A stretch of 33,439 nt of DNA, taken from Kitasatospora sp. MBT63. GTDB taxonomy: Bacteria; Actinomycetota; Actinomycetes; Streptomycetales; Streptomycetaceae. Of the stretch, positions 2,149 through 17,284 are shown piece after piece; position 1 is the stretch's first letter, and each line of letters opens with the position of its first letter. Position numbers and translations under genes: made by a program. The notes beneath the pieces are model-generated. The model ran no database searches and was not told the DNA's origin. It saw only the letters and a program-made list of their open reading frames with translations. The stretch lies in assembly GCF_000710465.2 (NCBI RefSeq), contig NZ_JAIZ01000786.1, positions 5,492 to 38,930 on the forward strand, read 5' to 3'.

Positions 2149-2834
2149 ATGGATGACGCATTCACACTGATCCGGCAGGCCGTCGACCTCCTGGCCGAGG
2201 AGGCCGTGGCGGAGAACGGCCAGACGGTCGCAGACGTCCGGGGGACATCCGGCTCCAGGAGTGGGAGATGGCACTCGATGTGCTCATCGAGATCGCGGAT
2301 GTCCGGCCGGTGCCCGTCGCCTTCTGGGAGAAGCTCGCCGAAGCCGCTCGGCAGATGATGCTGGAGAGCAACCGGCGGTGGTGCGAATGGCGGGCCTGGG
2401 AGGTCGAGCACGGCACGATCCGGGCGACCCTGACCCTGCTGGGGGCGGACGAGGGCGGACGTCAGGGGCCTTTCGAAGGGGACGGCCGGCTCAGGCCGCT
2501 GTGGGACATCGGTCACCGCACCGCAGCCGGGCAGCAGGACCTGGACATCGCCCGGCTCTGGGTGGAGTTCGCGCCGCGGTTCGGCCCGGGAGCAACAGCA
2601 GACGTCCGCCTGGCTCCCCTACGGCCCGGGCGGTGGCGGCATCTGGAGCCCGGTGATGTGATCACCATGCACGAGGCCCGGACCGCCACCGGCATCGCCG
2701 AGATCATCGAGGTCCTGCCCCCTCGCATCCGAGGTGCCGCCGGCCGTCCGACGGACGACCCGGCCCGCCGGGCCGGGGAACCGGCTCTCCCGGGTGCGCG
2801 GGGGTGGGCAGGTCAGGAGAGCCAGTCCGCGTAG
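2149..2834 (+). CDS. EF-Tu C-terminal-like domain protein, frameshifted near codon 31
   Basis: An ATG at 2149 opens MDDAFTLIRQAVDLLAEEAV, which runs to about 2241. The sensible continuation (DIRLQEWEMALDVLIEIADV) is in another frame that is open from about 2241 to 2834. The join falls in a run of five G (2240-2244). A sixth G would restore one continuous reading frame of about 228 codons, reading VRGDIRLQEW. The C-terminal part (PLWDIGHRT, a beta-strand stretch, LEPGDVITMHEARTATGIAEI) resembles the EF-Tu third-domain-like barrel found in small Streptomyces proteins of unknown role. The last about 35 residues are low-complexity and overlap the convergent SDR gene, so the ancestral stop may have been earlier. 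If the shift is real, only the 188-residue ORF from the ATG at 2268 would be made. A sequencing error in the G run is equally possible. Confidence 0.6.
2759..2777. terminator. GC hairpin near the convergent 3' ends
   Basis: CCCGGCCC-GCC-GGGCCGGG forms a perfect 8-bp stem with a 3-nt loop, between the recognisable end of the EF-Tu-like domain and the SDR stop. There is no T-tract, as is usual in this lineage. It may act in both directions. Confidence 0.45.
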
Positions 2835-3541
2835 TGGGTGGGGGCGAGCCGGGCGTCCCTGTCGGTGAGGACATCGCCCTTGACGACGGCGAACATACCG
2901 GCGGTGGGGTCGGTGACGACGGTACGGTGGTCGCCCTTGCGGGACAGGGTGATCCGGCCCAGCTCGTCCAGGGGGAGGATCTCGGGGCCGGCGATGTTGC
3001 GGATACCGCCGAGCGGGCTGCCCACGGCGACCTCCGCCACCGCGGCGGCCACGTCCCCGGCGGCGATCGGCTGGATCGGCGTGGCGGGCAGCCGGACGGT
3101 GTCCGCGTCGGCGGTCCAGGACAGTACGGCCGCCATGAACTCCATGAACTGCGTCGCCCGCACGATCGAGTAGGGGATCGGCCCGGCCGCGAGGATGTTC
3201 TCCTGGAGGACCTTCGCGCGGTAGTAGTCCAGCTCCGGCACCTGGTCCGCGCCGACGATCGACAGGATGACGAAGTGGCCGACACCACCCTTCCGGGCCG
3301 CGGCCAGAAGCGAGTCCATCGAGGTCTGGAAGAAGGCGAGGGACGCCTCGTCGAAGGTCGGGGAATTCGTCAGGTTGACGACGACGTCGGCCCCCGCGAC
3401 CGCCCCGTCCAGCCCCTGGCCGCTGATGACGTCGACCCCGGTGGACTGCGAGTGCGGCACCGCCTCGTGCCCGGCGGCGTTCAGATCCCTGACGACCTGT
3501 GACCCGATCAGCCCGGTACCGCCGATGACTGCGACCTTCAT
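2813..3541 (-). CDS. NmrA-like atypical SDR family oxidoreductase
   Basis: A 242-residue NAD(P)-binding Rossmann protein. The N-terminus MKVAVIGGTGLIGSQVV carries GxxGxxG, typical of atypical (extended/NmrA-like) SDRs. Residues about 50-75 form the next strand, ADVVVNLTNSPTF. A YYRAK motif at about 125-130 (LDYYRAKVLQ) matches the usual Tyr-x-x-x-Lys, followed by PYSIVRATQFMEF, a standard NmrA/NAD(P)H-azoreductase-like segment. It probably reduces or senses a small molecule or the redox state of NAD(P); the substrate cannot be told from sequence. ATG 3541 is chosen because the GxxGxxG strand begins right there and AAAGG lies 6 nt upstream. An open extension to 3616 exists but adds no recognisable sequence. 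The gene is monocistronic and convergent with the EF-Tu-like gene. Confidence 0.85.
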   Translation of the reverse strand: MKVAVIGGTGLIGSQVVRDLNAAGHEAVPHSQSTGVDVISGQGLDGAVAGADVVVNLTNSPTFDEASLAFFQTSMDSLLAAARKGGVGHFVILSIVGADQVPELDYYRAKVLQENILAAGPIPYSIVRATQFMEFMAAVLSWTADADTVRLPATPIQPIAAGDVAAAVAEVAVGSPLGGIRNIAGPEILPLDELGRITLSRKGDHRTVVTDPTAGMFAVVKGDVLTDRDARLAPTHYADWLS

Positions 3542-3571
3542 GACGTGCCTTTCGTCGGGAACATGTCCGCA

Positions 3572-3582
3572 ATATGGCATAT
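3572..3582. promoter_or_regulatory. Palindrome ATATG-G-CATAT upstream of the SDR gene
   Basis: An A/T-rich perfect 5-bp inverted repeat with a 1-bp centre, 30 bp upstream of the SDR start, in a very G/C-rich setting. It is well placed to be the -10 region or an operator for that gene. Such A/T-rich palindromes often lie before SDR genes controlled by HxlR or MarR regulators, but no such regulator gene is adjacent. Confidence 0.45.
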
Positions 3583-3672
3583 GGCACCTGGTCGCAGCTG
3601 TGGGCGCGCCACGCACCCGGGCCGAACCGGCTGTCCGCCGCGGTCGGAGCCGGGGACCGGCGCCGCAGCGCG

Positions 3673-3749: not shown

Positions 3750-5258
3750 CTATCCGGCGGCCGCCGCCGACCTGGCCTGGACGTCCTGGAGGGCCGCCAC
3801 CAGGGAGTTCACGTCTTCGACGGTGTTGTACAGGGCCAGCGAGGCCCGTACCGCCGCCTGCAGCCCGAAGGCGGCCAGCGCCGGCTGTGCGCAGTGGTGA
3901 CCGGCACGTACGGCGATGCCCTGCTGGTCGAGGGCGCCGGCGAGGGCCATCGGGTCCGCCCCGGCGAGCAGGAAGGTCAGCACGCCGATCTTCCCCGGGG
4001 CGTTGCCGATCAGGCGCAGGCCGGGGACGGTGGCCAGCACCGCCATCGCGTACGCGGTGAGCTGTTCCTCGTAGGCGGTGGCGGCCTCGCGGTCCAGCGC
4101 CGCGAGGTACTGCAGGGCGGCCCGCAGCCCGGCCACGCCGGCGATGTGGCCGGTGCCGGCCTCCAGCCGGTGCGGGACCGGGGCGTACGTGGTCTCCTCG
4201 AACCCGACCGAGTCGATCATGTTCCCGCCGCCCTGCCACGGGGGCATGGCCTCCAGCAGCTCGCGCTTGCCGAACAGCACGCCGATACCGGTCGGGGCGA
4301 AGATCTTGTGCCCCGAGAAGGCGTAGAAGTCGGCGTCCAGCGCGGTGACGTCGACCGGGAAGTGGCTTACCGCCTGCGCGCCGTCCACCAGGACCTTCGC
4401 GCCGTACCGGTGGGCGAGCGCGGTCATCTCGGCCACCGGCGGGACGGTGCCCAGCACGTTGGAGGCGTGCGTGAGCGCGACCATCCTGGTGCGGGAGCCG
4501 AGCAGGTCCCGGTAGGCGTCCTGGTCCAACTGCCCGTCGGGGAGCAGCGGGATCGGGCGGATCCGCGCCCGCCGCTCGGCGGCGATCAGCTGCCAGGGCA
4601 CCAGGTTGGAGTGGTGTTCGGCCGCCGAGACCAGGATCTCGTCGCCGACCCCCAGGTTGGCCCGGCCCCAGCTCTGCGCCACCAGGTTGACGGCCTCGGT
4701 GGTGCCCCGGACGAAGACGATCTCGCCCTGGTCCGGGGTGCCGAGCAGGTCGGCCGCGGCCTGCCGGCCCTCCTCGTAGACCTGGGTGGCCTGCTTGGCC
4801 AGGGTGTGCGCGCCGCGGTGGACGTTGGAGGTGCCCATCGCGTAGTGCTCGCCGACGGCTTCGACCACCTGGCGGGGCTTGAGCGTGGTGGCGCCGTTGT
4901 CGAGCCAGACCAGCGGGCGGCCGTTCACCTCCCGGTGCAGCTGCGGGAAGTCCCGCCGGACGGCCTCGACGTCGAATCCGCCCGGCGGTGCGGCGGGCGG
5001 CGCCGCCGGGGGCGTCGGGGCGGTCGGCGGCGTGCCGCCGGAAGGTGCGGCTGCCGATGGCGGTGTGGCGGTCTCCCGGTCCGGCTGCTCGGGCAGCCAG
5101 TACCGGGAGCCGCCCGCCAGGTGGGCGAGCGCGGCCGGCAGCGGCGGCGCCTGCGGCACCGGGAGCGTCTGCGGCATCGGAAGCGTGCCCGACTGCGGGG
5201 AGCCCCAGGGCGGTTGGGCGGTCGCGGTGCCGGCGCCGCTGCCGTCAGGAGTAGTCAT
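3750..5258 (-). CDS. Encapsulin-cargo cysteine desulfurase (SufS-like, family 2 cargo type)
   Basis: A 502-residue PLP enzyme that removes sulfur from L-cysteine, giving alanine and an enzyme persulfide. Residues 1-93 are a disordered Pro/Ala/Gly-rich extension with short hydrophobic patches (GTLPMPQTLPVPQAPPLPAA, then SRYWLPEQ). Ordinary SufS/CsdA enzymes lack this, and in family 2 systems it is the encapsulation-targeting region. The catalytic domain follows from FDVEAVRRDFP at 95. It shows EHHSNLVPW at 214-222, the PLP-contacting Asp292 (VDGAQAVSHF), the Schiff-base Lys318 in SGHK, and catalytic Cys456 in RAGHHCAQP, the class II (SufS) pattern. All key residues are present, so it should be active. 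The ATG overlaps the shell gene stop by 14 nt with little ribosome binding site, implying translational coupling. No suf scaffold genes are adjacent, so a role in sulfur storage or stress is more likely than general Fe-S assembly. Confidence 0.92.
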   Translation of the reverse strand: MTTPDGSGAGTATAQPPWGSPQSGTLPMPQTLPVPQAPPLPAALAHLAGGSRYWLPEQPDRETATPPSAAAPSGGTPPTAPTPPAAPPAAPPGGFDVEAVRRDFPQLHREVNGRPLVWLDNGATTLKPRQVVEAVGEHYAMGTSNVHRGAHTLAKQATQVYEEGRQAAADLLGTPDQGEIVFVRGTTEAVNLVAQSWGRANLGVGDEILVSAAEHHSNLVPWQLIAAERRARIRPIPLLPDGQLDQDAYRDLLGSRTRMVALTHASNVLGTVPPVAEMTALAHRYGAKVLVDGAQAVSHFPVDVTALDADFYAFSGHKIFAPTGIGVLFGKRELLEAMPPWQGGGNMIDSVGFEETTYAPVPHRLEAGTGHIAGVAGLRAALQYLAALDREAATAYEEQLTAYAMAVLATVPGLRLIGNAPGKIGVLTFLLAGADPMALAGALDQQGIAVRAGHHCAQPALAAFGLQAAVRASLALYNTVEDVNSLVAALQDVQARSAAAAG

Positions 5259-6654
5259 AGTAGTTCGACAACTCGACGTTCTGGAGCACCGCGACGGCGT
5301 CGTCCACCAGCGCGGCGGTCGAGAAGTAGCTGGTCACCAGGTACGAGGTGATGGCCCGGCGGTCGACGCCCATCGGCCGGACCGACAGGCCCGGCTCGAC
5401 CTCGTCCGGGACGCTCGACGGCCGCAGGCCCACCACGCCCTGCTCCGCCTCGCCGACCCGCATCAGCAGGATGTTGGTGGTGCCGGGCGCGGAGTTGCTG
5501 GAACCCCTGAGGTCCAGCTTGTCGGAGGGCAGCAGCGGCACGCCGCGCCAGGTCAGGAACGGGCTGCCGAAGAGCTCCACGATCTGCGGCGGCACCCCGC
5601 GCCGGGTGCACTCGCGCCCGAACGCGGCGATCGCCCGGGGGTGGGCCAGGAAGAACGCGGGCTGCTTCCAGACCCGGGTGAGCAGCTCGTCCATGTCGTC
5701 CGGGGTCGGCGAGCCCTTGCGGGTGTGCACCCGCTGGGTCGGCACGACGTTGTTGAGCAGCCCGTACTCGGGGTGGTTGAGCATCTCCCACTCCTGACGC
5801 TCGCGCAGCGCCTCGGTGGTCAGCCGCAGCTGTGCCTGGACCTGGTCGATCGAGGAGTTGTAGATGTCGGAGACCCGGGTGTGCACCTTCAGCACGGTCT
5901 GCGCGATGCTCAGCTCGTACTCGCGCGGGGACTCCTCGTAGTCCACGAAGGTCTGCGGCAGCTCGGGTTCGCCGCTGTGGCCCGAGGTCAGGTCGATCGG
6001 GTGCTCGCGGTCGGCCGGGCCCTGTCCGTCGGCGGCGTACGCGTCCAGGCGGGCCCGCAACGCTGGTTCCCGGTCGGCCAGTTCGGCGAGCATCCGGTGC
6101 TCGAGGGAGAGCACCGTACACGGGGTGAGGGCCCGGACCTGGTACGGGGTCGGCTCGCCGCGCACCCAGGCGCCGTCGTCGAAGTAGTCGCCGTCGCCGA
6201 GGACGGAGAGCAGGGCGTCCTCGCCGTACTGGCCGGTGGCGCGCTTCTCGGCGCGGCCGAAGGTGATGACGTGCAACTGCCCGGGCGGGGTGTCGGCGCT
6301 GGCGATGAGTTCACCGGGCTCGACCTCGCGCTGGACGAAGCCGTTGGCGAGGGCGCTCAGCATCGAGCTGTCCAGGTCGCGCAGGAAGACGATCTCGCGC
6401 AGGTCCTCGGCGATCACCCGGGCCTCGCCGCCGCCGTCGGTGAAGGTGCCGATCAGCCCGTCGCCGAGGATGAAGCCCCGCCGGCGGTTGACCCGGTAGA
6501 CGCCGGCCTCCAGGTCGACCCAGGGCAGCACCCGCAGCAGGTAGCGCGGGGTGATGCCGAGCATCTGCGGCGCGGTCTTGGTGGTGGTGGCCAGGTTCCT
6601 TGCGGCGGAGGTGCTGAGGCTCCGCTGGTTCTGCGGAGCGGTCTCGGTGGTCAT
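5245..6654 (-). CDS. Family 2B encapsulin shell protein with CNB-like domain (EshA-like)
   Basis: A 469-residue HK97-fold nanocompartment shell protein. It assembles into a protein cage in the cytosol that encloses its cargo, here very probably the overlapping cysteine desulfurase. Residues 1-80 form the N-arm (RSLSTSAARNLATTTKTAPQ, then PRYLLRVLPWVDLEAGVYRV). Residues about 85-210 form an inserted cyclic-nucleotide-binding-like beta-roll (LIASADTPPGQLHVI, GDGDYFDDGAW, YQVRALTPCTVLSL), which defines subtype 2B. Residues about 235-469 resume the HK97 fold, ending SNYYDYS. Length and domain order match Streptomyces EshA, first described as a cNMP-binding multimer. The usual phosphate-binding Arg of a CNB domain is not evident (TPYQVRAL where family members often read PRTATVRAL), so canonical cAMP binding is doubtful. 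The ATG at 6654 has AGGGA 7 nt upstream. It is the first gene of the operon. Confidence 0.9.
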   Translation of the reverse strand: MTTETAPQNQRSLSTSAARNLATTTKTAPQMLGITPRYLLRVLPWVDLEAGVYRVNRRRGFILGDGLIGTFTDGGGEARVIAEDLREIVFLRDLDSSMLSALANGFVQREVEPGELIASADTPPGQLHVITFGRAEKRATGQYGEDALLSVLGDGDYFDDGAWVRGEPTPYQVRALTPCTVLSLEHRMLAELADREPALRARLDAYAADGQGPADREHPIDLTSGHSGEPELPQTFVDYEESPREYELSIAQTVLKVHTRVSDIYNSSIDQVQAQLRLTTEALRERQEWEMLNHPEYGLLNNVVPTQRVHTRKGSPTPDDMDELLTRVWKQPAFFLAHPRAIAAFGRECTRRGVPPQIVELFGSPFLTWRGVPLLPSDKLDLRGSSNSAPGTTNILLMRVGEAEQGVVGLRPSSVPDEVEPGLSVRPMGVDRRAITSYLVTSYFSTAALVDDAVAVLQNVELSNYYDYS

Positions 6655-6851: not shown

Positions 6852-6931
6852 TATCGGGCCATAAGGGGGCAGTGGGATGTTCGAAAGCGCCGCTTGGATG
6901 TGGGTCGTCGAGGAGCCGGCGGCAGGGCATT

Positions 6932-6947
6932 CCAACCCGCCGGTTGG
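6932..6947. promoter_or_regulatory. TetR operator candidate 1: CCAACC-CGCC-GGTTGG
   Basis: A perfect 6-bp inverted repeat 21 bp upstream of the TetR start, followed by TATGCT, a plausible -10. The same half-site recurs at 7606-7621 and 7648-7663 downstream of the regulator. This supports autoregulation. Confidence 0.6.
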
Positions 6948-6968
6948 TGGCTTCGTATGCTTGGGGGC

Positions 6969-7583
6969 ATGGCATGGGACACCGAGAGGACCAAGCGGCT
7001 GCTGCTCGATGCGGCCGTGGACGAGTTCGCCGCACACGGGCCCGAGGGCGCGCGGATCGACCGCATCGCGACCGCGGCCGGAGTGAACAAGGAGCGGATC
7101 TACCCCTACTTCGGGGGCAAGCAGCAGCTGTTCGCGGCGGTGGTCCAGCGCGAGCTCGAGCAACTCGCCGCCGCCGTCCCGCTGGAGGAACCGGACGGCG
7201 GGACGGTGGACCTGCCGGAGTACGCGGGCCGGGTCTTCGACTACCACCTCGCCCACCCGCACCTGCTGCGCCTGCTCCAGTGGGAGGCGCTGTGCGGCGA
7301 CGGCTCCGCCCCGGTCGCGGGGGAGGGGCGCAGGGCCGCCCACTACGCCGAGAAGGTCGCCGCGGTCTCCCGGGCCCGCCGCGGCTCCGGGGGTGCCGGT
7401 GACGCCGCGAGGGGTGAGGTGCAACTCCCGCCCGCGGACCTGCTGTACGCCGTGATCGCGCTCGCCGGCTGGCAGTTCGCGGCGCCGCAACTGGCCCGCA
7501 TGATCATCGGCGGGGCGGTGGATGCGGATCCGGCCGCGAGGCGCGCCGCCGTGGTGGACATGGTGCGCAGGCTCGCGCTCTGA
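6969..7583 (+). CDS. TetR/AcrR family transcriptional regulator
   Basis: 204 residues. The N-terminal helix-turn-helix is clear: TKRLLLDAAVDEFAAHG, then ARIDRIATAAGVNKERIYPY and FGGKQQLFAAVVQ, the standard TetR DNA-binding pattern with the YPYFGGK recognition end. The C-terminal part (residues about 60-204) is a variable ligand-binding domain with YHLAHPHLLRLLQWEAL, typical of TetR regulators with a TetR_C_33-like or AcrR-like core. A repressor is expected. ATG 6969 (MAWDTERT) or the in-frame ATG 6957 (MLGG) could both serve; ribosome binding sites are weak for each. Three related inverted repeats (6932, 7606, 7648) lie before this gene and before the isochorismatase gene, which argues that it controls itself and that gene. 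The divergent encapsulin operon does not share the repeat in its proximal promoter. Confidence 0.88.
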   Translation: MAWDTERTKRLLLDAAVDEFAAHGPEGARIDRIATAAGVNKERIYPYFGGKQQLFAAVVQRELEQLAAAVPLEEPDGGTVDLPEYAGRVFDYHLAHPHLLRLLQWEALCGDGSAPVAGEGRRAAHYAEKVAAVSRARRGSGGAGDAARGEVQLPPADLLYAVIALAGWQFAAPQLARMIIGGAVDADPAARRAAVVDMVRRLAL

Positions 7584-7596
7584 CCGGCCTGCGGGG

Positions 7597-7630
7597 CCCA
7601 CATCTCCAACTCAAGGGTTGGAGATGTGGG
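7597..7630. promoter_or_regulatory. 14-bp-stem inverted repeat containing operator candidate 2
   Basis: CCCACATCTCCAAC (7597-7610) is perfectly complementary to GTTGGAGATGTGGG (7617-7630), with a 6-nt loop, 13 bp after the TetR stop. It can act as a rho-independent-like terminator. Its inner part, CCAACT-CAAG-GGTTGG (7606-7621), also matches the operator-like repeats at 6932 and 7648, so it may double as a regulator site. Confidence 0.6.
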
Positions 7631-7646
7631 TGCGCTCGCGCTAATA

Positions 7647-7664
7647 TCCAACTCGTCAGTTGGA
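7647..7664. promoter_or_regulatory. Operator candidate 3: TCCAACT-CGTC-AGTTGGA
   Basis: Perfect 7-bp arms 25 bp upstream of the isochorismatase start, next to the A/T-rich TAATAT (7642-7647), a plausible -10. A repressor bound here would block the promoter. The arms match the repeats at 6932 and 7606. Confidence 0.65.
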
Positions 7665-7688
7665 AACATTCGCACCAGGAGACCGACC

Positions 7689-8333
7689 ATGACGGCCATG
7701 CCCGCACGCCCGAACGCCGCCCTCGTCCTGATCGAGTTCCAGCGCGAGTGGCTCGACCCCTCGCACGGCCGCCTCCACCACCTCGTCGAGGACCGCGACC
7801 TGCTGGACACCGCCGTGCGCGGCGCGGCCGTCGCGCTGGCCGCCGCCCGGGAGCACGGCGTTCCCGTCGTGCACGTGCCGCTCGTCCTCACCCCGGGCGC
7901 ACCCGAGCTGGAGAGCTGGACCCCGGCCGTACTCGGCCTGCGCGCGGCGATCCCCAAGGCCGGCACCTGGATCGAGGGCAGTACGGGCGTCGCGTTCGCC
8001 GAGGATTTCCGGCCCGCCCCCGGCGAGCCGGTCGTGCGCGGCCGCGCCGGCGCCAGCGCCTTCGCCGGCTCCTCCGACCTCGACCTGATCCTGCGCCGAC
8101 TCGGCGTCACCGACCTCTACCTGGCGGGCTTCGCCACGCACGTGTGCGTCGAATCCACCCTGCGCGAGGCCCACGACCGCGGCTACACCGCCCACGTCGT
8201 CCACGACGCCTGCGCGGCCTTCACCCGGGCACAGCAGGACCACGTCCGCCAACACGTGATCCACCACTTCGGCGACGAGACGGACGCCGCAGCCTTCGCC
8301 GCCTCCCTCGAGGCGCCGCTCCCCGCCCACTGA
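7689..8333 (+). CDS. Isochorismatase-family cysteine hydrolase
   Basis: 214 residues, the normal length for the isochorismatase/nicotinamidase-like fold. The core strand reads NAALVLIEFQREWLDP, and the nucleophile Cys lies in GFATHVCVESTLREAHDRGY, a hallmark of the family. The usual catalytic Asp (as in LxxIDxQ) is Glu here, and the usual Lys (K-x4-SAF) is Arg in VVRGRAGASAF. The Cys is kept, so hydrolysis of an amide or a related bond is possible, but the substrate may differ from nicotinamide or isochorismate. AGGAG lies 9 nt before ATG 7689. An operator-like palindrome in its promoter matches those around the upstream TetR gene, so the gene is probably induced by that regulator's ligand. 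Confidence 0.88.
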   Translation: MTAMPARPNAALVLIEFQREWLDPSHGRLHHLVEDRDLLDTAVRGAAVALAAAREHGVPVVHVPLVLTPGAPELESWTPAVLGLRAAIPKAGTWIEGSTGVAFAEDFRPAPGEPVVRGRAGASAFAGSSDLDLILRRLGVTDLYLAGFATHVCVESTLREAHDRGYTAHVVHDACAAFTRAQQDHVRQHVIHHFGDETDAAAFAASLEAPLPAH

Positions 8334-13718: not shown

Positions 13719-15881
13719 TCAACGGTGGGTCAGGACGGCGATGTCCGAGCCGAAGCAGACCACCAGCTGCCCGTCCGGTGCCACCGCCAGTCCGCCGATC
13801 GGGGCGGGGAAGGCGTACGTTCCGAGCTGCTGCCCCGTGGCGGCGTGCCACACGCGGACGGTTCCGTCGACGCTCCCGGCGGCGACGACGGTGCGACCGT
13901 CCAGCGTCCCCGCCGCGCCGGCCGACACCTCGGCGGTGTGGCCCGTCAGGGGCGGCCCGAAGCGTTCACCCGTGGCCAGGTCCCAGAGCTGGACCGTCTC
14001 CGTCCGGTCGCCGGTCAGGAGGAGGTTGCGGCCTTCGAGCGTCTCCAGGGCCAGGGCGCCGCGCTGCTGCGGCCGTACCCCCATCCAGGCGTGCGCGGCC
14101 AGGTCCCACACGCGTCCTTCCGAGGTCACGGCGACGAAGCGGCCCTCCGGTGCCGCGAAGAACCGGATGGACGGGCTGGTGTACTCGCTCGTCGTCAGCC
14201 CGTGCAGCTCTTCCCGGGTGGCCAGATCCCGGACCTGCGCCTTCACGTGCCGGTCGCGGGTGAGGAGCGCGGGCCGTCCCTCGACCGTACCCACCGTCAG
14301 CATCGACACGGCGGCGGTGTGGCCGGTCAGCGGCTCACCCAGCTGACCCCCGCCGTGGATGTCCAAGATCCGTACCTCGGTGTCCGACCCGCCGGCGACA
14401 ATGACCGAACGACCGTCGACGACTCCCGTGGTGGCCCGCTGCACGGGCGCCGCAGCACCGGCCGGACGGCTGTCCGGCTCCTCCTGGCCGAGGTCCCAGA
14501 TGCGGACCGATCGGTCGTCGCCGCCGGTGACGGCGAGATGGCGCCCCTGTACCACGGCCGTCGCCGCTCCCCGCACGGTCCCTTGATGACCGGTCAGCGG
14601 CCGGTGGGAGCGCTCGCGGGTGGACAGGTCCCACACGGCGACCGGCCCGCCGAGGCCGAACCCGACGATCGCGGTGGGGCGCCCGCGGAGCACCGTGAGG
14701 GTCGCCGCCTGCGCGAACCCGCCACCCGGCCCACCCACCTGATCGCCCGTGGCCAGGTCCCAGACGTACGTGGCGTAGGAGTTGGCGCTGATCACCAACG
14801 GGCACTCGAACGCCGGGTCGGTGGCCAGGACGTGCGTCATGGCTTCGACCTCCATGGTGCCGCACCGGCGCATCCCGCCGTCACCGCCGCCGTCACCGCC
14901 GCCATCGCCGTCCGCGCCGCTGCCGTCGGCGGCCGTCGGGAGACCGGACGCCGGATCGGCGATGGGGTGGGAATCCTTGTCGTCGCCCCCGGCGCGCAGC
15001 TCCCGTCCCGTGATCAGGTCCCACCTCCGGACGGCGCCTTCGGGATGGCCGGTGACGGCGACCGGACGGCCGTCCACCACCGCCGTCGCGAGCGCATGCA
15101 CATGGCCGGTACTGATGGTCAGGAGCTCCGTGGTCGGGCCGGGGGCGGCCAGGTCCCACACCCGGAGCAGGCGGTCGGTGCAGCCGGCGACCAGGACCGG
15201 TCGGCCCTCGACCGGTGCGGTGGCCAGGGAGATGATCCGGACGCCGTCGCCGGCGCGGTACTCCCCGAGCAGTCGTCCCTCGGCGAGGTCCCAGGCCAGG
15301 ACCGTCCCGTCGGAGCCGCAGGTGACGGCCACGGGACCCCCGTCCGCCATCGCCGTCACCAGATCACGCACGGCGCCGGTGTGACCGGTGGTGGTCCGGC
15401 CGAGCTTCCGGCCCGTGGCCGGGTCCCACCAGTGCAGCGTGCCGTCCTCGCAGCCGGCGACGGCGAACCCGCGGCCCTCCACGACCACGGTCGCCACCGC
15501 AGTCACCTCGGCCGGCGCGGGCAGCGCGAACCGCAGCCGTGCGTCCAGGCCGGTACCGGTCGCCCACTCCACCGTCCAGCCATCAGCGGCCTCCTGGGGG
15601 AGCGGCACCTCCGCGAGGCTCCTCGCCAGCCCCGGGCTGCCGTACCGTGCGGCGTCCAGCGCCAGCAGCTGCCGCCGTACCTGCGCACCGGCGTCACGGT
15701 GCACATGCCCCGACGCCCGGTACACGGCAGCAGCCGCAACCTCCTCCGGCCCGACCGCAGCGTCCAGCGCCGCCAGGACCTGCTCCGGGTCGCCCTCCAC
15801 CAGCCACCCCGGATCGGTCAACCGCCCACGCCCCGCGGCATCTTCACGGACCTGACCATCGCTTCGGAAATCAGCAGACAT
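13719..15881 (-). CDS. WD40 repeat beta-propeller protein
   Basis: 720 residues. After an N-terminal part of about 110 residues with an Ala/Leu/Arg-rich helical segment (RRQLLALDAARYG), WD40-type blades run to the end. Recurrent units end in WD or WDL: LHWWDPATG, VLAWDLAEG, LLRVWDLAAP, VRRWDLITG, TYVWDLATG, VAVWDLST, VRIWDLGQ, VQLWDLATG, VRVWHAATG, with GHT-type starts. About 11-13 blades fit one or two propellers. A Gly/Asp spacer (GADGDGGGDGGGDGG, near residue 330) divides them. No catalytic, helix-turn-helix or kinase domain is seen, so it probably acts as a protein-binding scaffold. ATG 15881 (MSADFRSDG) is chosen since upstream sequence in frame is low-complexity. It lies 116 bp downstream of the MFS gene on the same strand. 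Confidence 0.85.
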   Translation of the reverse strand: MSADFRSDGQVREDAAGRGRLTDPGWLVEGDPEQVLAALDAAVGPEEVAAAAVYRASGHVHRDAGAQVRRQLLALDAARYGSPGLARSLAEVPLPQEAADGWTVEWATGTGLDARLRFALPAPAEVTAVATVVVEGRGFAVAGCEDGTLHWWDPATGRKLGRTTTGHTGAVRDLVTAMADGGPVAVTCGSDGTVLAWDLAEGRLLGEYRAGDGVRIISLATAPVEGRPVLVAGCTDRLLRVWDLAAPGPTTELLTISTGHVHALATAVVDGRPVAVTGHPEGAVRRWDLITGRELRAGGDDKDSHPIADPASGLPTAADGSGADGDGGGDGGGDGGMRRCGTMEVEAMTHVLATDPAFECPLVISANSYATYVWDLATGDQVGGPGGGFAQAATLTVLRGRPTAIVGFGLGGPVAVWDLSTRERSHRPLTGHQGTVRGAATAVVQGRHLAVTGGDDRSVRIWDLGQEEPDSRPAGAAAPVQRATTGVVDGRSVIVAGGSDTEVRILDIHGGGQLGEPLTGHTAAVSMLTVGTVEGRPALLTRDRHVKAQVRDLATREELHGLTTSEYTSPSIRFFAAPEGRFVAVTSEGRVWDLAAHAWMGVRPQQRGALALETLEGRNLLLTGDRTETVQLWDLATGERFGPPLTGHTAEVSAGAAGTLDGRTVVAAGSVDGTVRVWHAATGQQLGTYAFPAPIGGLAVAPDGQLVVCFGSDIAVLTHR

Positions 15882-15997
15882 GACCGGCACCCTAACCGCG
15901 CCCACCGACCACGGTCTGTCCGATGAGGTCCGACGAGGTCCGCCGCCCGCCGGCCGATCCGGCGCCCGAAGCGGCCCGCACAGGCGAGGGATGCGCC

Positions 15998-17284
15998 CTA
16001 AACGGCACCCGCGTGAACAAGTTCCGAGGACTCCCGGCGATCCGAGGCATCGGCCGGGGCGGCAGTCTGCAGCGCTGCCTCGATCCTGCGGTTGGTGGTC
16101 ATGGTCGCCGTGACGGCGGTCATGGTGAGGAGGAGGCCGGCCGCGGCGAAGAGCGGGGTGCGGACGTCGTAGGTGCTGGCCAGCCAGCCGCCGAGGAAGG
16201 AGCCGAACGGGGCGGCGCACATGGCGAGCATGCGGGAGGTGGACGCGACCCGGCCCATCAGGTGGGCGGGAACGATCGCCTGCCGGAGGGAGGGCCCGAG
16301 CACCATCGTGGCGCCCATGCCCGCCCCGCAGACCGCGAGTGCGAGGCCGGCGACGTACGGGTTCGGGGCGGCGGCCAGGCCGAGGACGGCTAGCCCTTCG
16401 ACCGCTGCTGTGCAGGTCAGTGCGGTGCCGGTGCCGAGCCGTCGGCCGAGGAAGGAGGCGATGCCCGTACCGAGCAGACCGCCGGTGGCCTCCGCCGTCA
16501 GGAGCAGGCCGAAGCCGAAGGTGCCGATGCCGAGACGGTCGTGCGCGAAGAGGGCGAGTACGGTCTCCACGGCGAGGAAAGCTACATTCCCGACCGCCGG
16601 GCGCAGCGCGAGCCCGAGCAGCAGCTGATCCCGCATCACGTACGAGGCGCCGGCCCGCGCCTGCCGCAGCAGCGACTCACGGGTCTGCGGCACGGGCCGG
16701 GGCGCGGCAGCCAGCGACCGTACGAGCAGGGCGGAGAGCGCGAACGAGAGCGCGTCGGCGAGCAGCGGAACCGCCCGCCCCAGCGCGAGCAGGGCACTGC
16801 CCGCGGGCGGGCCCGCGAAGCCGGACGCGGCGGTCTGGCTGCCGCGCAGGCGGGAGTTGGCGCGTTCGAGGAGTACGGGGTCGCGGCCGAGCAGGTCCGG
16901 CAGGTAGGCCGTGGCGGCCGTGTCGAAGAAGAGCCCGCCGAGGCCGAGGAGGAAGGCGAGGGCCGCGAGCAGCGGAACGCTCAGCGCATCGAGCGCGGCC
17001 GCTGCCGCCGGTACCGCGAGCAGCGCCGCGCGTGCCGCGTCCGTGACCCACATCGTGCGCCGGCGGTCCCAGCGGTCCACCAGTGCGCCGCCGAGCACCC
17101 CGAAGAGCAGCCACGGCAGCGTTCCGGCGGCCGTGACGACGGCGAGCGCCATCGGGTCGCGCGTCAACGTCAAGGCGAGCAGCGGCAGCGCGGCATGCGT
17201 CACCCCGTCGCCGAGCGAGGAGACCGTCTGCGCGGTCCACAGCCGTCCGAAGCCGGTCGGCAACTTCGGAGCTTCTGTGGTCAC
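15998..17284 (-). CDS. MFS transporter (EntS/MFS_3-like drug or metabolite exporter)
   Basis: 428 residues with about 12 hydrophobic helices. The N-terminus reads LPTGFGRLWTAQTVSSLGDG, the usual opening of the EntS-like MFS_3 group. The loop 2-3 motif is GALVDRWDRRRTMWVTDAARA, the conserved MFS motif A form of this group. Later parts include NSRLRGSQTAASGFAGPPAGSAL and QAIVPAHLMGRVASTSRML. It should export small molecules using the proton gradient at the cytoplasmic membrane; the substrate is unknown. The start is GTG 17284, overlapping the ArsR stop as GTGA, so translation is coupled. The ArsR repressor probably controls it through the palindrome at 17826. Confidence 0.92.
   Translation of the reverse strand: MTTEAPKLPTGFGRLWTAQTVSSLGDGVTHAALPLLALTLTRDPMALAVVTAAGTLPWLLFGVLGGALVDRWDRRRTMWVTDAARAALLAVPAAAAALDALSVPLLAALAFLLGLGGLFFDTAATAYLPDLLGRDPVLLERANSRLRGSQTAASGFAGPPAGSALLALGRAVPLLADALSFALSALLVRSLAAAPRPVPQTRESLLRQARAGASYVMRDQLLLGLALRPAVGNVAFLAVETVLALFAHDRLGIGTFGFGLLLTAEATGGLLGTGIASFLGRRLGTGTALTCTAAVEGLAVLGLAAAPNPYVAGLALAVCGAGMGATMVLGPSLRQAIVPAHLMGRVASTSRMLAMCAAPFGSFLGGWLASTYDVRTPLFAAAGLLLTMTAVTATMTTNRRIEAALQTAAPADASDRRESSELVHAGAV

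Follow-up and report, generated by a model that had tools for sequence, protein, structure and literature searches.

Two overlapping minus-strand genes in the window analysed here, a 33,439-nt stretch of DNA from Kitasatospora sp. MBT63, quite probably form a two-gene operon whose products are a Family 2B encapsulin and, as its cargo, a cysteine desulfurase (CD). The order of the genes, their overlap, a CNB-bearing 2B shell, the catalytic residues of CD, a RYWLPEQ motif near its N-terminus and a descent shared with 2A cargo can all be read directly from the sequences. The pair is best read as an ordinary 2B-CD nanocompartment, belonging to a branch in which cargo loading appears altered, with CD probably inside the cage. 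Coupled translation would yield shell and CD, the N-terminal tail of CD would carry the enzyme inside the shell, and CD would then remove sulfur from cysteine entering via the pores, by analogy with the 2A system of Synechococcus elongatus; the CNB domain would not be expected to sense cAMP. The openly accessible literature searched yielded no experiment on whether a 2B shell encapsulates a CD.

The first-pass annotation had taken the pairing to be unusual, which is not borne out. A 2021 study reports 199 CD operons of Family 2B, spread over nine phyla, in which a CNB-containing shell lies beside a SufS-like CD whose N-terminus is disordered, as in the window pair (Andreas and Giessen, PMC8346489), and PMC12407261 counts the CD operon among the 2B operons with two components. 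The window pair is one more operon of this published type, with no difference in kind. The question of how often 2B shells neighbour CDs, also raised by that annotation, has a divided answer: CD adjoins the shell in a minority of the nearest loci (13 of 80), a fourteenth, L016, being cut by the contig end and the other 66 having no CD above 300 bits (for shells taken from a genome search, with flanks of about 1.5 kb, absence of CD refers to that stretch), yet within the phylum to which locus L050 belongs one lineage has the pairing as a rule, with CD downstream in 28 of 30 fetched loci and the other two ending just after the shell. The MBT63 genome carries two further 2B shells (L002 and L003), on contigs without a reported CD match, and no cargo was seen for either in the stretches examined. 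Locus L260 carries two shells, and the three ORFs between them have no Pfam match.

A Family 2B encapsulin is expected to assemble into a T=1 shell of about 28 nm. The window shell gene (5245..6654, minus strand; 469 aa) scores 647.4 bits against the family 2B model NF041163 (cut-off 400), and its product contains the HK97-fold SrpI-like domain PF19307 at residues 216-463 (388.6 bits) and cNMP_binding PF00027 at residues 109-195 (52.9 bits, cut-off 27.5). Together with AlphaFold pLDDT, the latter match delimits a CNB-like domain at residues 61-210 or thereabouts (6025..6474, minus strand). The shell also passes the 2A model NF041162 (433.2 bits, cut-off 380); although its HK97 part does so, its domain content rules out a true 2A shell. 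In the AlphaFold model the CNB part (residues 61-210) reaches pLDDT values of 71-92 in blocks of ten, whereas values under 50 are found at residues 1-59, 211-271 and 405-449, and the whole model averages no more than 62.9. Among solved structures it is matched best by 9bhu, the Family 2B shell of S. griseus, with 6x8m also matched. Both 9bhu and the S. lydicus Enc1/Enc2 shells (9bje, 9bix) have the fold and CNB insertion of the window shell, but Enc1/Enc2 belong to a putative xylulose-kinase system, unlike the CD pairing described here (PMC12407261).

The CD gene (3750..5258, minus strand; 502 aa) encodes a SufS-like enzyme that scores 516.9 bits against TIGR01979 (cut-off 475.1), with the match starting at residue 99. 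Alignment identifies the PLP lysine, Lys318 (4305..4307, minus strand), and the persulfide cysteine, Cys456 (3891..3893, minus strand), both invariant across 14 aligned CDs, the window's included. The N-terminal region (residues 1-100; 4959..5258, minus strand) is rich in Pro and Ala, with 25 and 17, respectively, in the first 93 residues. The shell and CD genes share 14 nt, ATGACTACTCCTGA, at exactly 5245..5258 (minus strand), and have third-position GC contents of 0.97 and 0.95. The first-pass annotation was right on the following points: the gene coordinates, the 14-nt overlap, the 2B-type shell with its CNB insert, the Pro/Ala-rich extension and the retained catalytic residues. More broadly, CD starts 14 or 17 nt before the shell end in 15 of 22 2A pairs and 18 of 26 CNB pairs, a script having taken as the start any in-frame start codon at -14, -17 or -8; this choice equals the deposited annotation in the three comparable records (L202, L205 and L210). 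ATGA[CG]TA is found at 31 of the 33 junctions of the -14/-17 type. In eight pairs, dN/dS ranges from 0.10 to 0.28 for the CD core, 0.13 to 0.36 for HK97 and 0.25 to 0.61 for CNB, which indicates that all three are kept.

Among characterized systems, the Family 2A SrpI/CyD pair of S. elongatus has the same order, shell then CD, and a CD in the same clade as the window's. The shell-domain columns of SrpI and the window shell are 60% identical, but SrpI is devoid of the CNB domain, and the CyD targeting domain, at about 225 aa, is unlike that of the window CD. In addition, cysK, epsC and a rhodanese gene adjoin the S. elongatus locus, while no match to any of them was found in 16 Streptomycetaceae loci.

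In shell trees, CNB shells with CD fall between 2A shells (with CD, no CNB) and 2B shells without CD. The latter form their own clade (100/100), with the window's clade outside it, although among CD-linked groups the window's clade is the closest to them (84/85; 93/86 in the second shell tree). Clustering of the shell with 2A proteins, which the annotation had named as evidence against its view, is therefore only half seen, the HK97 part lying between 2A and no-CD 2B shells. The CDs of CNB shells form one lineage with 2A cargo CDs: 47 shell-linked CDs (21 from 2A, 26 from CNB loci) make up one clade (100/99) against 14 housekeeping SufS. This tree replaced an earlier one with two outgroup rows only, in which the SufS of the same genome, on a long branch, was pulled into the CNB-CD group. 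Free trees draw the CNB-CD shells as a grade, but the AU test leaves a CNB-CD clade unrejected (p 0.249 and 0.175 for shells in two trees, 0.42 for CDs), so neither paraphyly nor gain or loss of CNB is claimed. Frames lacking a stop within the locus, matches starting after query residue 60, proteins below 260 aa and any shell that duplicates another over its last 200 residues had been removed before shells were counted, as had rows with more than 25% gaps and near-identical rows before trees were built (284 shells, then 102, then 45). L076_5847 was left out of the careful shell tree; the second omitted four long rows (L203, L204, L210 and L260), with the contig-end shells L016 and L152 labelled as CD-linked. 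L271, whose extracted core is short, was left out of the CD trees, and chains 9bhu, 9bje and 9bix are themselves outside the shell trees. In the available text of PMC8346489 we found nothing said about the relationship of 2B-CD shells to 2A, which its similarity network (Fig. 4a) may show.

These trees rule out a recent capture of CD by a terpene-type 2B shell, to which we give next to no credence: the two additional 2B shells of the genome and the proximity of the window's clade to no-CD shells would fit it, but the separate no-CD clade, the common clade of CD and 2A cargo and a junction shared with 2A operons all argue against it. Very improbable as well is the view of the first-pass annotation, a novel pairing that would put sulfur chemistry under the control of a ligand-gated 2B shell. 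The CNB fold is present in the model and among fold matches, and its dN/dS stays below 1; CNB nevertheless has the highest dN/dS of five stretches in seven of the eight pairs, the pairing is already published, and a lack of cyclic-nucleotide binding has been reported for the 2B CNB domain (PMC12407261). When its phosphate-binding-cassette loop (GDYFDDGAWVRGEPTPYQV; shell residues 155-173, 6136..6192, minus strand) is aligned with that of L050 (GDFFGEIALMDDVQRTATV), D160 occupies the Glu site and T169 the Arg site, so that neither residue of a cAMP-binding cassette is found. The annotation had rightly remarked on the missing Arg, which is, however, not peculiar to this shell, being absent from 260 of the 261 CNB shells in the analysed set. 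Gating by a ligand is unsupported, as the Arg-site residue differs even between close relatives (T, M, L, A or V in Streptomycetaceae). Trypanosome PKA regulatory subunits were among the CNB fold matches (inosine, guanosine; one mutant named T318R), and the nucleoside ligand that they hinted at was dropped because the pocket Thr is Met in the six other CD-linked Kitasatospora-type shells.

A more serious alternative, still rather unlikely, is that the Streptomycetaceae CD is not carried in the classical way, co-expression having been kept while targeting decayed, with CD free or loaded otherwise, for instance by coupled-translation assembly. According to the available text of PMC8049743, 2A loading requires the N-terminal domain of CyD, which also suffices for it: deletion of the whole domain abolishes loading, and a fragment with the second motif only does not load. 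The activity of CyD is about sevenfold higher in the encapsulated state, and SrpI F262 lies near the cargo density. Judged from primary structure, the cargo-targeting region is eroded in Streptomycetaceae. Of the two known N-terminal motifs (LARLANEFFS and AASPYYFLDG), the window CD has only the second, as RYWLPEQ (residues 52-58; 5085..5105, minus strand), the likely counterpart of YYFLDG. The seven Kitasatospora-type CDs have N-terminal regions of 53-106 aa with one motif, and seven Streptomyces CDs have 14-81 aa with neither. The first motif is absent from all 15 Streptomycetaceae cargos by pattern search, a coarse test given that the strict pattern, written like the other after the sequences were seen, finds it in only 8 of 21 2A cargos and misses look-alikes such as IERLTRQLY in Ktedonobacter and several in 2A cargos (e.g., LQLLANELF). 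The conserved MTTPD start of CD is dictated by the overlap. The position of SrpI F262 is P427 in the window shell (5374..5376, minus strand), Pro or Ala in Kitasatospora-type shells and Asn or Asp in seven Streptomyces shells. Finally, CD misses the cut-off of the CyD-like cargo model NF041166 (629.8 versus 800 bits), its match starting at profile position 224 of 623; this, the missing first motif and the changed F262 position count against the cargo reading.

Against decay, RYWLP, for which shuffles give an expectation of 0.03, is kept in all seven Kitasatospora-type CDs; S. clavuligerus retains RYWL, and each of the 15 Streptomycetaceae pairs has the -14 junction. In a Bacteroidota-phylum lineage, moreover, the F262 position is Leu in 27 of 27 shells, and the seven full cargos keep the first (7/7) and second (6/7) motifs. 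The losses of motif and shell residue are confined to one clade and so represent a single correlated event rather than independent evidence. In the cargo reading, which we favour, this branch departs from 2A and other-phyla 2B-CD systems in having lost the first targeting motif and a hydrophobic shell residue near the cargo, and no genes for cysteine synthesis were found next to the pair. Since the targeting domain, once longer than 100 residues, has shrunk to a minimum of 14, with overlap, shell and catalytic site kept, we tentatively raise the possibility that CD enters the CNB shell of Streptomycetaceae independently of its N-terminal domain, for example by assembly at the coupled overlapping genes. 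As part of the same tentative proposal, a CNB shell with a desulfurase may be the connecting state of Family 2, CNB having been gained before the change to terpene-enzyme cargo, or 2A shells being descendants that lost it. Sorting Family 2 by CNB presence cuts across cargo, as in the trees desulfurase shells with and without CNB are neighbours and their desulfurases one lineage. Near relatives whose CDs carry one targeting motif or none provide a natural series in which the Family 2 loading rule can be tested using laboratory strains.

The shell gene (5245-6654, reverse strand) and the cysteine desulfurase (CD) gene (3750-5258, reverse strand) were both recovered as open reading frames at the positions and on the strands first assigned to them. 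The shell is of the Family 2B type with an inserted cNMP-binding-like (CNB) domain, as the first-pass annotation had read it: in a profile search, the 469-aa product reaches 647.4 bits against the NCBI model for 2B shells (cut-off 400), and Pfam places a cNMP-binding domain at residues 109-195 and an SrpI-like shell domain at residues 216-463. It also exceeds the cut-off of the 2A model (433.2 bits; cut-off 380). In its predicted structure (mean pLDDT 62.9), the CNB part (residues 61-210) reaches 71-92 by blocks, and residues 1-59, 211-271, and 405-449 fall below 50; the top match among solved structures is the Family 2B shell of S. griseus (9bhu), with 2A shells next. Among named genomes, the nearest shell is that of Kitasatospora sp. 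GP82 (90%), on which the label Kitasatospora-type rests below.

The pair belongs to a kind already in the literature and is ordinary within it. The pairing had been thought unusual, but a 2021 survey lists CD as putative cargo in 1281 operons of Family 2A and, across nine phyla, in 199 of Family 2B (PMC8346489), and a 2025 S. lydicus study includes it among five two-component 2B operon types, the single-shell form occurring for every cargo type except XK (PMC12407261). What the present analysis adds is the placement of CD-linked CNB shells, the cargo lineage and junction that they share with 2A shells, and a graded tag loss within Streptomycetaceae. In our survey of named genomes, where CD was called above 300 bits directly downstream of the shell, the pairing does recur (13 of the 80 shells closest to the window's), but 66 shells had no CD in the stretches examined, up to 10 kb on each side; at one locus (L016), the contig ends about 70 bases after the shell. 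All 13 CD loci have a single shell, and 59 of the 67 loci without CD have at least two shell reading frames. Pfam scans of a sample of four no-CD loci show a terpene synthase adjoining the shell in three (L025, L043, and L032) and none in the fourth, L091. Nichols et al. (2021; PMC8049743) separate 2a from 2b by tree and tie 2b to terpenoid genes, which agrees with the no-CD clade described below, but not with CD-linked CNB shells.

Further CNB-CD pairs occur in Ktedonobacter (L024), Methylobacterium bullatum (L203), S. clavuligerus pSCL4 (L204), the 853-kb plasmid of Kitasatospora NBC_00039 (L205), Streptomyces BHT-5-2 plasmid p1 (L206), and one distant actinobacterial genome (L260). Of note, L260 (G197:C51:1-12500) carries a CD-linked CNB shell and a no-CD-clade shell a few kb apart on the same strand. 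An SrpI-like shell of any kind was found in 19 of 396 genomes of the window's phylum, and Ktedonobacter's own genome gave the only full match among 201 of its phylum. From 247 genomes of the phylum of L050 (record title: Bacteroidetes bacterium), the best 30 loci were taken; they look like one lineage, with CD downstream in 28, while L152 and L160 end shortly after the shell, L152 having at the contig end an open frame that carries the first cargo motif. The full set comprises 284 distinct shells: 23 of type 2A (all with CD), 46 CNB-CD, of which this Bacteroidota lineage supplies 27, and 215 CNB shells without CD. In four genomes of unstated completeness (G413, G556, G494, and G1109), the encapsulin-linked CD is the only SufS-family match at E <= 1e-60, and may thus be the sole SufS-type enzyme there.

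Shell trees were built without the CNB columns (292 columns). A quick tree of 102 shells separates 21 2A and 14 CNB-CD shells, together with L016 and L152, from the other 65 CNB shells (SH-aLRT 100). In a more careful tree of 45 rows, 2A shells form a clade (100/99), as do the 12 no-CD shells (100/100, contig-end rows set apart), and CNB-CD shells form a grade between the two. The window shell falls outside the 2A clade, and the CD-linked grade to which it belongs lies on the 2A side of the main split. The alternative, a single clade of CNB-CD shells, is not rejected by the AU test (p 0.249), nor in a rerun with four long rows removed and L016 and L152 counted as CD-linked (p 0.175); this rerun needs only two changes for the three shell groups. 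Wherever the root is placed, these trees imply a single change for CNB and a single change for CD, and the simplest state for the node joining the three groups would be to have both traits. The Streptomycetaceae clade, which includes the window, is the CD-linked group closest to no-CD shells (84/85; 93/86 in the rerun), and its mean identity over the shell domain is 59.6% to no-CD shells versus 55.5% to 2A. Between groups, this identity is 55.2% for 2A/CNB-CD, 56.6% for CNB-CD/no-CD, and 50.1% for 2A/no-CD. This intermediate position, with CNB-CD shells flanked by 2A on one side and other 2B shells on the other, is what the trees add, though it may already show in a published figure.

The cargo points to common descent. 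With 14 housekeeping SufS as the root, all 47 CDs linked to shells fall into a single clade (100/99), so CNB shells share the 2A cargo lineage and do not have an independent recruit; 2A cargos form a clade inside it (100/99), and CNB-shell cargos branch without clear order (AU p 0.42). The 502-aa CD of the window scores 516.9 bits on the SufS model (cut-off 475.1), with a match from residue 99; against the model for 2A cargo it reaches 629.8 bits, short of the cut-off (800). Its catalytic residues Lys318 and Cys456 are present as described, and invariant across 14 aligned CDs. The 14-nt overlap of the two genes was likewise confirmed (ATGACTACTCCTGA). CD starts 14 or 17 nt ahead of the shell gene end in 15 of 22 2A pairs and 18 of 26 CNB pairs, counted with a script that favoured such a start wherever in frame (deposited annotation matches in L202, L205, and L210). 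ATGA[CG]TA stands at 31 of 33 of these junctions, which occur in Actinomycetota, Chloroflexota, Bacteroidota, Pseudomonadota, Myxococcota, and Campylobacterota, as judged from record titles or the phylum searched; none of seven fully read CNB pairs of the Bacteroidota lineage has one. A shell tail able to encode the junction, with [HY][DEHTI][YL] among the nine C-terminal residues, occurs in 23/23 2A, 19/46 CNB-CD, and 1/215 no-CD shells, the last being the contig-end locus L016. This pattern agrees with a cargo lineage and junction common to 2A and CNB shells. Since the overlap dictates MTTPD at the CD start, this string is not readable as a tag.

Loading signals were sought upstream of the enzyme core. 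In the S. elongatus 2A work, residues 1-100 of the CyD cargo gave poorer loading, and a piece bearing the second motif alone gave none (PMC8049743). By strict patterns, the first motif (LARLANEFFS) occurs in 8/21 2A cargos and 10/11 CNB cargos of other phyla (chance <0.1), and the second (AASPYYFLDG) in 15/21 and 9/11 (chance about 1 each). Kitasatospora-type cargos have no strict match to the first (0/7) and carry the second as RYWLP (7/7; 0.03 expected), that of S. clavuligerus keeps RYWL only, and seven other Streptomyces cargos have neither motif in the 14 to 81 residues preceding the core. Six of the seven come from named species of verticillate Streptomyces. A putative loading tag would have been lost by degrees within Streptomycetaceae, a gradation new here that makes the loading question testable. 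On the shell side, F262 of S. elongatus SrpI lies near the published cargo density (PMC8049743). Its position is Phe in 18/23 2A and 173/215 no-CD shells, Leu in 27/27 Bacteroidota-lineage shells, Pro or Ala in the Kitasatospora type, Pro in S. clavuligerus, and Asn or Asp in the seven Streptomyces. Y273 is conserved in 23/23 2A, 212/215 no-CD, and 44/46 CNB-CD shells. GPTGLGT, found at 19/67 no-CD loci and 0/13 CD loci, belongs to the terpene-cyclase cargo motif given as GPTGLGTSAAR in PMC8346489. LGTSAAR is common to that motif and the N-arm of 2B shells, an observation that concerns L043:11384-13726, L032:6186-8507, and the shells of no-CD loci; among 215 no-CD shells, the N-arm reads SLGTAAAR in 67 and SLGTSAAR in nine, and the window shell has SLSTSAAR. 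It is possible that the tag on the cargo imitates the N-arm of the shell itself.

The CNB domain does lack the phosphate-binding Arg, as had been noticed: the alignment puts Thr at the Arg site of the window shell and Asp at the Glu site. Trp holds the Arg site in 208/215 no-CD shells, and Arg itself is present in one of 261 CNB shells, L050 (FGEIALMDDVQRTATV), which makes its kind the leading candidate for an encapsulin that binds nucleotides. This CD-linked Bacteroidetes MAG shell (L050:10001-11326) has a near-canonical cNMP cassette (FGE ... RTATV), in a translation where one residue is undetermined and the linker has a gap. Across eight pairs (NG86), CNB has a dN/dS of 0.25-0.61, compared with 0.13-0.36 in HK97 and 0.10-0.28 in the CD core, and is the highest of five stretches in 7/8 pairs, so the domain is conserved, if loosely. 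Together with the lack of cyclic-nucleotide binding reported for the 2B CNB domain (PMC12407261), these results leave gating of the shell by cAMP without support.

The surroundings of the pair vary. In the window, Pfam identifies an NAD-binding protein (2813-3616, reverse strand), a TetR regulator (6894-7583, forward strand), and an isochorismatase-like protein (7626-8333, forward strand), none of which was found in 15 other Streptomycetaceae loci, bar a weak isochorismatase match in L019. The pairs of L204, L205, and L206 are carried by linear megaplasmids (0.85 to 2.8 Mb); this and the absence there of the window's three neighbours suggest that the shell/CD pair may move between sites. Matches to cysK or epsC were found at 6/6 Bacteroidota-lineage loci tested, and to cysK, epsC, or rhodanese at 15/21 2A loci (including S. 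elongatus, the query source) and L203; the same three gave none at 16 Streptomycetaceae loci, nor at L024, L050, or L260. The window's own genome has two further 2B shells (G000:C556:280-1656 and G000:C438:4504-5868), about 50% identical to the window's and both near contig ends, with no cargo evident among the scanned reading frames. Elsewhere in the window, an 833-aa reading frame (13719-16220, reverse strand) has WD40-repeat matches across much of its length.
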